From: Acidimicrobiales bacterium
GTDB taxonomy: Bacteria; Actinomycetota; Acidimicrobiia; Acidimicrobiales; JAKAVM01
NCBI GenBank assembly: GCA_027452005.1
Contig: DAIDHF010000004.1
Location: forward strand, 40,732 to 104,731
Reading direction: 5' to 3'
DNA: 64,000 nt
The position numbers and the translations under genes were made by a program. The notes beneath the pieces were generated by a model that had not been told where the DNA came from, made no database searches, and saw only the letters and a list, made by a program, of their open reading frames with translations. Of the stretch, positions 54,678-58,142 are shown piece after piece. The stretch's first letter is position 1. The number at the start of each line of letters is the position of its first letter.

Positions 54678-55202
54678 GTGAAGGTAATCTTGCTGGTTGT
54701 CGTGTTGGCTTTAGCGGTAGTCTTGGGAGCCTGGTTCAAGGGACTCTTGGTCGCCAGAAAGTCCGCTCCTGGTCTGCCAAAGGCGGAAGTTGACCGTGAT
54801 ACGTCAACGAGTGGGCGTCATTCCAAAGGGGGTGCCGGGCCAAGGGTTACGCCTCCACAGTCAATTGACCTTGACGAATTGGCCCAATGGGTGAAGAGGA
54901 ACCTCCCTCCCGACATTCAGCCCGGACTGGAAGTTGAGACAATCAGGCGCATTGTCGAATGGAATCTGGACTTTATCAGGTCTAAGCGAGCATCTAGTAA
55001 CGGTCACTCAACAAAGCCAGCAACCCAGGTGGTGGTTGCAGGTGCCGAGACCGCCGAGTACGTGCTGAATCGCTCGAGTGAGGTAGGGCTAGGGCTAACT
55101 CCGGCCCAGGTTCATGCCGTGCTAGATGCCCAAATGGCCTACCTGGAGTCCATGGGAGCCGCAGGCCCCGAGATAGGACCCGATCCTTCAGGTCCTTCTT
55201 AG
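54678..55202 (+). CDS. Hypothetical membrane-anchored protein
   Basis: 174 aa, GTG start; N-terminal TM MKVILLVVVLALAVVLGAWFKGLLVAR; soluble helical region SIDLDELAQWVKRNLPPDIQPGLEVETIRRIVEWNLDFI. Confidence 0.72.
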   Translation: MKVILLVVVLALAVVLGAWFKGLLVARKSAPGLPKAEVDRDTSTSGRHSKGGAGPRVTPPQSIDLDELAQWVKRNLPPDIQPGLEVETIRRIVEWNLDFIRSKRASSNGHSTKPATQVVVAGAETAEYVLNRSSEVGLGLTPAQVHAVLDAQMAYLESMGAAGPEIGPDPSGPS

Positions 55203-55254
55203 AATTCCTTGAGATTCCACCACCAATAACGTCAGGTCGGCTAATGTGGGGAAT

Positions 55255-55470
55255 ACCAGGGAAAGGAGGTGGTCCAACTGTTAGATGAAGATTTAGGGAC
55301 TCTGGAGGTGCACGGCTGCTAGGCAGAGCACTGGGAATGCTGGCAAATACCTGCCATGCACCGCTTCCAACAGTGGCGGAACAGTCCTTTCCACCTAAGT
55401 AACTTGTTGAGAAGTCCTCTCCAGTAAAATCAGTATATGAGAGCGCCCCGTCTAGGGGCGCTCTTTGTGT
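55255..55470 (+). ncRNA. Candidate structured RNA/riboregulator with extended anti-16S complementarity and intrinsic terminator
   Basis: GGGAAAGGAGGTGGTCCAA (55259-55277); nested inverted repeats 55303-55369; internal CCTTTCCACCT (55386-55396); terminator 55440-55464; no long ORF. 5' end not determinable from sequence. Confidence 0.55.
55440..55470 (+). terminator. Intrinsic terminator
   Basis: AGAGCGCCCC GTCTA GGGGCGCTCT TTGTGTT: perfect 10-bp GC-rich stem, 5-nt loop, T-rich tail. Confidence 0.88.
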
Positions 55471-55610: not shown

Positions 55611-58142
55611 GTGCTAGAACACGATAGGCATGCAGAACCGGTGGCTATGACCGAGGACCAACTTAGATTCAAACTAGGGATCCCCCAAGATGCATCTAGG
55701 GTCTTAGTAGTACTTGAGTCCAGCCACTGGGATCCCAATTGGTTACTGACCTCACGCGAGTCCTTCAAGGTTGCCGTTTGTAAAAATCTGGAGATGGCCT
55801 TGGGTGAGCTAGCACGTGAACCCCGTCGGATCTACTGCGTGGAGTGTGCGTTCTTTTTGAAGATGTTCTGGGATGCTCGCCCAAGTAGGCGAGGTGAACT
55901 CGTTGAACACCTCAGCAGTGGGCACTTGAGGCTGCTGGGGACCGGGGTTACAACTCCCGACACGATCCTGCCATCGGTCGAATCAATTATACGTGACTAT
56001 CAAATTGGTAGCCAGTGGTATCGTTCAATCGGGGTTGATCGTCAGACACGAGTGGCCTATCTGCCAGACTCCTTTGGACACGCACCCACCGTCCCTGGGA
56101 TCCTTCGAGCGCTCGGGGTTAGTGGCGTCGGGATCTGTCGAATTGATGGTCAGTACCTGGTTGGTCGGGAAACCGACTCAAAGGTACACTTTCCAAGACC
56201 CAACACGAGTGCCGATCTCCTCATGAATCGTGAGCGATCCCAGGACTTTATTTGGAGAGGACCAGGCGGGGCAGAGGTACTAGCTCACTGGATGGCTTAT
56301 GGATATGGATTTGGCCAAATGTTGGCTCATAACGGGCTTACCAGAGCCTACAGGCTGCCTCTGGCAAGACCAGCCAGGTCGATAGATCAAGTGGCCGACA
56401 AGATAAACCGGTTTGCCAGGAGACTCTCTCGGACCTCTCGCACCCCATATCTCCTGTGTCCAACAGGGTTCGATTTTGTTCCACCCATTCACGGACTAGT
56501 TGACCTGTTGGATGGCTACAATCAGAACAACTATCCCACGAGCGGTACTTGGGCGACCTGCCTGGGATTTGACGACTACCTAGATCTGGTTGGATTCCAC
56601 CGAGACAACTTGCCAACTATTGAACTCGATCCTAACCCGTACTTTAGTGGATTTTACACATCACGGGCGACCTTGAAGACAGCAGCTTACCTCTTAGCTC
56701 GTAGACTTTTGGAAACCGAGGCATCAATAGCACTATCACAGGGCGATATAAGCGAGGATGAAAAACGGGTAATTGAAAGTTCCTGGTGGATCTCAGCGGT
56801 TTCAAACCATCACGACTTTATTACGGGAACCTCTCCTAACCGAGTCGCGCAAAATGAGCAGATATCCTGGCTCAAAAGTGCACTGGATACCTTGGAAAAT
56901 GACATGGTCAAAAGAATTCCTACATCACACAAGCCGGTTGCCTTGGTGAGTTCTGGCGTTGACATTGACGAGGTCTCAATAGATTTTCTGAAAAGCTATG
57001 AACTAAGAGATGGACCCGATGAACTACGAATAACAGCTGGTTTTGGTGAAATAGTTTTCGACAAAGCACGGGGAGGAGAAATCTCGAAGTTTATGGTTGG
57101 CCAACAAGATTGGGTCTCTCCCGGCAAGACTCTGTTTGAGTTGGCCTCATATCGAGACAGCGGGGGGCTTTGGAGGATGGGTATGGAGTATATCGGCGGT
57201 ACCTTTGAGCTAGTTGAGACCCCATCGCGGCCTCGGTCACTTACAAAGTTGACAATTAGTCCTAATGACAACCTTGAGATTCATACGTGTTCAAGGTTGG
57301 ACGGGATGGACATCGAGAGATGGTACAGGATAATGAGAGTTGACAAAATAGGCCCGATTATTGTTACGGCACTTAGGCTTGCCCCACGTAAAGACAGGAC
57401 GGTAACGGTTCGCGTTGGTCATGAGAGTGAGATGAAGTCGGCTATCATGGACATGCCAGGAGGCTGGGTGGTACGCCCGAGCAAGAACTATTACGAGCCT
57501 ACTTTTTGGCCGTTTCAGTCTTTTGCATACCTGGGAACCTCGAGTGGCCTTGAGCTAGGTGTGTTCTCGTCGATTCCAAAGGCAGTAGCGGTCAGAGACG
57601 AGCAGCGTAGCTTGGAGGTAGTCTTGGCAAGAAATGCCCGTATGGAAAGACACCACCGGACGGTTCCGGTCCCTGGAATGCCAGTCTACGGGACAGATGG
57701 GGCGACAGTCGACGTTCATTTGGGGTTAGTTAGGACACTACCAGGGACTCTTAGCCCACAATTACTTCGAGGTCTTGCAAGGAGACTTTCTAGGATATGT
57801 ACTTTCGAGCCACCGCCAGGTAGTCCATTTAGCACTACGGCCCGGATGTTGGCTATTGACCAGGTCAAGGTAAGTGGAGATGATGTAGAGATTTTGGCCG
57901 TAAAACCAGCTGCACGCGGAGGCGGGGTAATAATTAGACTGCAAAACTGGGCTCAGAACTCGGTCATCTGTGATTTGAGCGTTAGTCCCGGCAGGATCGA
58001 CAGGGCCGTTATATGTAACGCGCTAGAGGATGAGATTTCGACTCTAGAGGTTAGCGAGGGTCGTAAGGTGCGTGCCGAAATCGTTGGAACGTTAGCAACC
58101 GTCAAGGTATGGCTATCAAGTGAGGTTAGTAAGAAAAATTGA
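55611..58142 (+). CDS. Glycoside hydrolase family 38-type alpha-mannosidase
   Basis: 843 aa; VLVVLESSHWDPNWLLTSRE, QWYRSIGVDRQTRVAYLPDSFGHAPTVPGILRALGVSGVGICR, WWISAVSNHHDFITGTSPNRV. Start could be internal ATG at 55647. Confidence 0.85.
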   Translation: MLEHDRHAEPVAMTEDQLRFKLGIPQDASRVLVVLESSHWDPNWLLTSRESFKVAVCKNLEMALGELAREPRRIYCVECAFFLKMFWDARPSRRGELVEHLSSGHLRLLGTGVTTPDTILPSVESIIRDYQIGSQWYRSIGVDRQTRVAYLPDSFGHAPTVPGILRALGVSGVGICRIDGQYLVGRETDSKVHFPRPNTSADLLMNRERSQDFIWRGPGGAEVLAHWMAYGYGFGQMLAHNGLTRAYRLPLARPARSIDQVADKINRFARRLSRTSRTPYLLCPTGFDFVPPIHGLVDLLDGYNQNNYPTSGTWATCLGFDDYLDLVGFHRDNLPTIELDPNPYFSGFYTSRATLKTAAYLLARRLLETEASIALSQGDISEDEKRVIESSWWISAVSNHHDFITGTSPNRVAQNEQISWLKSALDTLENDMVKRIPTSHKPVALVSSGVDIDEVSIDFLKSYELRDGPDELRITAGFGEIVFDKARGGEISKFMVGQQDWVSPGKTLFELASYRDSGGLWRMGMEYIGGTFELVETPSRPRSLTKLTISPNDNLEIHTCSRLDGMDIERWYRIMRVDKIGPIIVTALRLAPRKDRTVTVRVGHESEMKSAIMDMPGGWVVRPSKNYYEPTFWPFQSFAYLGTSSGLELGVFSSIPKAVAVRDEQRSLEVVLARNARMERHHRTVPVPGMPVYGTDGATVDVHLGLVRTLPGTLSPQLLRGLARRLSRICTFEPPPGSPFSTTARMLAIDQVKVSGDDVEILAVKPAARGGGVIIRLQNWAQNSVICDLSVSPGRIDRAVICNALEDEISTLEVSEGRKVRAEIVGTLATVKVWLSSEVSKKN

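Follow-up and report, generated by a model that had tools for sequence, protein, structure and literature searches.

Layout of the locus and family of the RNA

In the window, as we call the whole 64,000-nucleotide stretch of Acidimicrobiales DNA analysed here, the gap between a gene for an uncharacterised protein and a gene for a GH38 alpha-mannosidase holds a candidate RNA of ~210 nt, counted from predicted start to terminator (Table 1). Its promoter and terminator, as those of a discrete transcript, are predicted from comparison with homologous loci. First, the predicted 5' start falls at the same position in the homologues, and a TANNNT box stands at a fixed distance before it in 122 of 220 of them (0 at a control offset); a generic sigma-70 scan returned no site at the locus, and we consider the comparative -10 box the better evidence for a promoter. 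Second, the 10-bp terminator that an earlier note on this DNA, made from the letters alone, had placed from 55440 is present, and a GC-rich hairpin lies at a similar distance (~220 nt on) in 173/201 homologues compared to 50 in shuffles. In Tsukamurella and Gordonia (L063, L069 and L128) the RNA is seemingly cut down to ~110 nt, with a terminator-like hairpin directly after the P3 region and without the 3' domain.

Table 1. Features of the locus, in window coordinates, with the evidence for each
Feature	Position	Strand	Evidence or remark
Uncharacterised protein, upstream neighbour (outside RNA)	54678-55202	+	adjoins RNA in part of the order
-10-like box TAATGT	55242-55247	+	comparative
Whole RNA, Ms_IGR-5 homologue	55255-55466	+	predicted start to terminator end
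P1 5' strand CCAG (RNA 5' end)	55256-55259	+	covariation with 55302-55305
Complement of whole 16S 3' tail, extended Shine-Dalgarno	55260-55276	+	genome scan, RNAduplex, substitutions
P2 5' strand GGTCC (also within 16S complement)	55271-55275	+	pairing count
Micro-ORF CTG..TAG, MLDEDLGTLEVHGC then stop	55278-55322	+	start, stop and open frame conserved in almost every homologue
P2 3' strand GGACT (within ORF)	55297-55301	+	pairing count
P1 3' strand CTGG (codon before Glu and G of GAG)	55302-55305	+	covariation
Invariant GGAGGTG block within ORF, second SD-like element	55304-55310	+	GAGGTG conservation
P3 5' strand GGTGCA	55307-55312	+	permutation test
P3 3' strand TGCACC	55357-55362	+	permutation test
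Internal anti-SD CCTTTCCACCT	55386-55396	+	present; GGAAAGG/CCTTTCC pairing probability ~0.48
Intrinsic terminator, 10-bp stem	55440-55466	+	pair probabilities at least 0.95
GH38 alpha-mannosidase, downstream neighbour (outside RNA)	55611-58142	+	position not conserved

Upstream neighbours of the RNA are clade-specific, being an acyl-CoA dehydrogenase and the uncharacterised protein in the window's order and gyrA in many Thermoleophilia. The uncharacterised product, whose gene is conserved beside the RNA in many of the order's genomes, has 174 aa with a hydrophobic stretch at its N-terminus and matched nothing in Pfam/NCBIfam; on one Thermoleophilia-type contig (L151:2830-6717), a GyrA with an intein lies immediately 5' of the RNA. 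On the downstream side, the GH38 gene starts ~145 nt past the terminator on the same strand, so that a leader ORF followed by a terminator would give the layout of an attenuator, as expected if the RNA were a cis-acting leader of this gene. The GH38 protein matches none of the homologous loci, and the genes downstream of the RNA vary from clade to clade, both in identity and in strand. Because of the promoter box, the closing hairpin and the non-conserved downstream genes, we take the RNA to stand alone, as the earlier note had supposed in calling it independent; cis-regulation of GH38 was rejected on the lack of conservation of the downstream genes, and we give it hardly any weight.

Scanning Rfam with cmscan in E-value mode matched 55255-55420 to the complete RF02471 (Ms_IGR-5) model (positions 1-184 of 184) at 30.1 bits (E 3.8e-5), below the gathering cut-off of that family (45 bits). 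A scan at the gathering threshold gave no match at the locus, and five further weak Rfam matches (E 0.19 or worse) were disregarded. A relative from the same order (L027) scores 45.9 bits, above the cut-off, and was recovered again (as G117, E 4.6e-19) by R1, a covariance model of our own built from 26 divergent 5' domains. By sequence, the window RNA is a homologue of Ms_IGR-5, linked to the family through a relative that passes the cut-off. A blastn-type nucleotide search found one copy per genome in 26/41 related genomes, and the RF02471 model was positive in 36/148 genomes of the class, once above the cut-off. A DNA motif search across the phylum was positive in 109/398 genomes, a handful of these being chance matches within genes, and the reversed control gave few; among the matches listed are named Acidimicrobiia, Solirubrobacterales, Nitriliruptoraceae, Tsukamurella and Gordonia records. 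R1 recovered the RNA from 139/299 genomes at E <= 0.01, in most cases at E values well under 1e-6 and as a rule in single copy; its search within the class was positive in 59/100 genomes, and it scores the window RNA, a member of its own training set, at E 5e-20. By these searches, the family is normally single-copy and spread across the Actinobacteria phylum. Genomes were placed in Mycobacterium or Streptomyces from genome size, sequence and the Rfam consensus.

Ms_IGR-5 is an sRNA widely conserved in Actinobacteria, mycobacteria and Streptomyces included, for which a limited literature search found no function. It is transcribed in S. lividans (PMC8079986) and S. avermitilis (PMC8780764), and ncMSMEG15794c from a cold-stress study of M. 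smegmatis overlaps IGR-5 (PMC10454040). Profiling of M. abscessus together with published M. smegmatis data revealed significant ribosome footprints on Ms_IGR-5, the same authors stating that footprints on non-coding RNAs lack clear evidence of translation (PMC4974804).

Pairing with the 16S rRNA 3' tail and helices of the RNA

In the assembly to which the window belongs, the 16S 3' ends have the sequence ..GGCTGGATCACCTCCTTTC with T or G as the next letter. Against the 16S sequence GGAUCACCUCCUUUCU (GGATCACCTCCTTTCT), the RNA sequence 5'-GGAAAGGAGGUGGUCC gives 16 continuous pairs when wobbles are allowed (RNAduplex, -29.9 kcal/mol), or 17 when the next U-A pair is added. The earlier note had read GGGAAAGGAGGTGGTCCAA (55259-55277) as pairing over about 17 nt with one G-U; the length holds, and the G-U pairs become two if the terminal U is counted. 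A scan of the genome (3.2 Mb, by pattern) for the perfect tail complement with <=3 mismatches hit the 16S genes at 0 and 1 mismatch and 55260-55276 at 2, both of them wobble-compatible, with all remaining sites at 3 mismatches, the level of the reversed control. No other site of the genome outside the 16S genes can pair with the 16S 3' tail over its entire length, and the near-continuous complementarity noticed earlier is not a product of chance. All 16 pairs are kept in 77 of 85 loci whose retrieval did not depend on an exact 16-mer, a set drawn from blastn, the Rfam model and R1 and hence still rooted in sequence similarity. Leaving position one aside, the 16-mer shows 41 substitutions compatible with the pairing (A to G facing U, C to U facing G, and G to A) against 5 that disrupt it, three of the latter in the doubtful locus L302. 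Streptomyces-like loci from large genomes, for example, read GAAGGGAGGTGGTTC and remain paired with the tail via wobbles. Judged from these substitutions, the 16S-tail pairing is under selection, and because an ordinary Shine-Dalgarno sequence (SD) needs only about six of the 16 tail pairs, the full-length pairing is probably useful. The window's own genome has two 16S 3' ends, in loci L206 and L207 (contigs C147 and C158), whose sequences differ upstream of and past CCTCCTTTC (..GAGCG and ..TACGAG); the genome may have a second rRNA operon, or one of the contigs may be contamination.

As alignment of the full-length RNAs of the whole group (MAFFT and RNAalifold) returned no consensus structure (-8.3, with a gappy 3' part), structure was tested helix by helix. 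P1 occurs in 22 fully complementary forms in 191/222 sequences (permutation maximum 87), including CCAG/CTGG, CCGA/TCGG, CACG/CGTG, CACA/TGTG, CGAC/GTCG and CCAC/GTGG; sliding its partner along gave nothing comparable in pairing, and its covariation score in the 26-sequence alignment was 0.380 versus 0.129 shuffled (0/500). P1 is absent from the Rfam consensus of RF02471, in which the 5' end is unpaired, and it competes with the first Rfam helix (gGugGu with gCugCc), of whose six pairs the window RNA has three in non-standard form. As its probability in the single-sequence ensemble of the window is 0.003, P1 would have to form cotranscriptionally or with help. P2 (GGUCC/GGACY) is fully formable in 158/220 homologues, hardly varies and shows little covariation. 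For P3 (GGUG../..CACC), a permutation test restricted to CACC partners gave 43 for five inner pairs (permuted mean 7), and a loose search did no better than shuffles.

All other motifs and stems quoted in the earlier note (GGAAAGG/CCTTTCC, AGGTGG/CCACCT, TGGA/TCCA, GGTGCA/TGCACC, GGCA/TGCC and AGCA/TGCT) lie where it had placed them. Of its nested stems, GGTG..CACC exceeds permutation; the overall folding stability is no more than mild (z = -1.61, 13/200 shuffles equally good), and the nested stems alone would therefore not be significant. In the 3' domain, a loop with GGTCC(C) (in L005, L008 and L010, for example) was seen in 130/220 homologues versus 57 shuffled; together with the GGGACC of the ORF it could form a pseudoknot.

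The micro-ORF and its frame

The earlier note had seen no convincing ORF in the gap, wrongly so: the window RNA contains a micro-ORF of 14 codons (55278-55322), with counterparts of 11-16 codons in the homologues. The frame was read by anchoring on the conserved GAGGTG block, and one open frame then appeared in every homologue of the first set. A non-coding impression that 22 homologues had given, by their varying spacer length and missing ATG, was overturned by anchoring the frame on this 3' block. A stop codon lies exactly 15 nt past the anchor in 210/220 homologues and interchanges between TAG (136), TGA (53) and TAA (21). From SD to anchor, the frame has 0/210 in-frame stops, versus 154 and 116 in the other two frames and a mean of 75 (minimum 55) in shuffled regions. 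Because related sequences are not independent, non-redundant subsets (0.7 to 0.9 similarity; 0.6 left just 11 spacers) were used as well, and here 32 spacers had 0 in-frame stops versus 24 and 16 in the other frames, with a shuffle mean of 11.4 and a minimum of 3. When counted more widely, from a point closer to the SD, a stop occurs in 5/210, each time 5' of the start used. The spacer length takes all residues modulo 3, and start and stop are nonetheless in frame.

Starts were assigned as the first canonical codon or otherwise a near-cognate one, and in the 210 homologues they are TTG (73), ATG (53), CTG (39), GTG (18), ATC (17), ACG (4), ATA (3) and ATT (3), mostly 8-12 nt past AAGGAGG. In 66/210 homologues, the window among them, only CTG, ATH or ACG is available in frame and AUG, GUG and UUG are missing; translation could for that reason be weak. 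A divergent clade (L208-L217) keeps the GGAGGTG..TAG block and reads it in a different frame (ending ..GGGSS before the stop), a one-base difference restoring the stop so that start and stop are again in frame. The same block is read in another frame in L294-L301 (..SGGTSG before the stop), and across both groups of variants the start is sometimes unclear. At the loci found by model only (L286-L325), an ORF is present in nearly all by partly manual reading, L302 looking false and L294 and L297 ambiguous. On this comparative evidence, we regard the open frame as conserved by selection, which supplies the footprinted Ms_IGR-5 with a candidate reading frame.

The match to a known Rfam family and the conserved short CDS across the stems, two findings that the earlier note had itself named as speaking against its proposal, mean that the RNA is not an unknown riboregulator. 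Of its suggestion of an SD-sequestering switch for a tiny peptide, the conserved short ORF bears out the SD of a tiny peptide; as to sequestration, near-exact GGACCACC past the stop occurs in only part of the homologues, and an SD/anti-SD helix (GGAAAGG/CCTTTCC, ~0.48 in the window) is a possible way to mask the SD.

The frame also bears on two readings in which translation plays no part. If the RNA were an ordinary trans-acting non-coding sRNA, its short ORF would be a by-product of conserved RNA blocks. The annotation as sRNA in Rfam and the structured 3' domain fit this reading, as does the recovery of Ms_IGR-5 with heterologous Hfq in M. smegmatis, reportedly made in the discovery paper, to go by its title. 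RNA blocks alone fail to explain the frame, because the variable loop is stop-free in exactly one frame though its length spans all residues modulo 3, and we hold this reading to be very improbable. The other would have the 16-bp pairing hold 30S subunits, for hibernation or titration, as a decoy of the 16S tail with translation incidental. Full tail pairing kept through wobble-preserving changes at ~-30 kcal/mol would be expected of such an RNA, and weak start codons in many species agree with it. A decoy has no need, however, of an open frame, an in-frame start or exchangeable stops, and many species do use ATG, GTG or TTG; titration or mimicry of the 16S tail, one of the earlier note's suggestions, is disfavoured by the conserved frame if it is to go without translation, and the decoy seems to us quite unlikely.

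We then compared the frame with the peptide that it would encode. In a comparison of 38 close pairs, the first, second and third positions of the variable codons had 25, 18 and 25 substitutions, and there is thus no sign of selection on the peptide here; 12 of the changed codons are synonymous and 46 non-synonymous. These codons are rich in AGT, TCT, TGT, TTA and AGA, which is unusual for GC-rich actinobacteria. Because a set collected with a sequence pattern is biased at the very positions which that pattern fixes, conservation of the SD and of Glu-Val was measured only on loci from other searches: Glu-Val is GAG-GTG in 74/75 loci found without that pattern, with 0 synonymous variants. The seemingly conserved peptide residues coincide with RNA elements, and the codon before Glu is dictated by helix P1. 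Such a frame, kept by selection while the peptide apparently is not, suggests that the RNA acts through its own translation.

The rival reading is an mRNA or dual-function RNA for a micropeptide ending ..(G/R)T-x-E-V-A-x-R, with a structure that only tunes expression. The conserved frame, the strong SD and the published Ribo-seq footprints suit it, and the C-terminal pattern recurs in most classes. Against it, the variable codons lack third-position bias, the conserved residues are RNA elements with Glu-Val never synonymous, residue x follows P1, and the divergent clade obtains a different peptide from the same RNA block. We consider this reading rather unlikely; a role for the peptide is still possible, as its C-terminal part is too constrained as RNA to be judged.

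A proposed translation-coupled RNA and its relation to known systems

We propose, at a probability of roughly 0.6, that Ms_IGR-5 and its homologues are translation-coupled RNAs which capture ribosomes through an extended SD and whose function lies in being translated, a view we take because selection holds start and stop in frame and apparently leaves the peptide free. The 5' end would form a small hairpin (P1/P2) with the extended SD in its internal loop; by pairing with the entire single-stranded 16S tail, this SD would capture ribosomes very strongly. Captured ribosomes would then translate the 11-16-codon micro-ORF (start NTG, often CTG or AUH) up to the fixed stop codon within the structured part. 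A ribosome in the ORF would melt P1, P2 and P3, strands of which lie in the ORF, and the 3' part could refold. The structure, stability or target-binding state of the RNA might in this way report the number of free, tail-intact 30S subunits. Two elements of this model are our inference, namely the switching of the RNA by translation and a trans-acting output. The full form of this proposal, a stand-alone riboregulator of ribosome availability that senses or captures free tail-intact 30S subunits across the phylum through translation of a micro-ORF indifferent to its peptide, is advanced tentatively, at somewhat less than even odds.

The most conserved part of the RNA is a complement of the entire 16S tail that serves a hidden micro-ORF, with a covarying helix that is new to the Rfam model. 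If translation itself is the signal, the RNA would be a rare stand-alone reader of ribosome availability, and the ribosome footprints on the 'non-coding' Ms_IGR-5 would be accounted for.

Compared with Ms_IGR-5 as described in RF02471, the window RNA has the full-length model match, the stand-alone unit and the 5' block GGAAGGAGGUGGUCC..GGAC..GAGGUGGCU..CUAG in common, whereas the Rfam structure pairs other bases, leaves the 5' end free and lacks P1, and the Rfam description does not include the micro-ORF. Leader-peptide attenuators (trp-type, uORFs) couple translation of a short ORF to RNA folding; the window RNA likewise joins a short ORF to a folding RNA with a terminator at its end, but lacks a conserved downstream gene. 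tmRNA is a stand-alone structured RNA with a micro-ORF of ~10-15 codons, and the window RNA is similar in both respects; unlike tmRNA, it has no tRNA-like domain (ARAGORN found neither a tRNA nor a tmRNA gene in the window) and carries an SD and its own start codon. Finally, the dual-function sRNAs SgrS/SgrT, RNAIII/hld and SR1/SR1P are also stand-alone structured RNAs with a short ORF and an SD of their own; in these the peptide is functional, whereas here the frame is kept and the peptide apparently is not.
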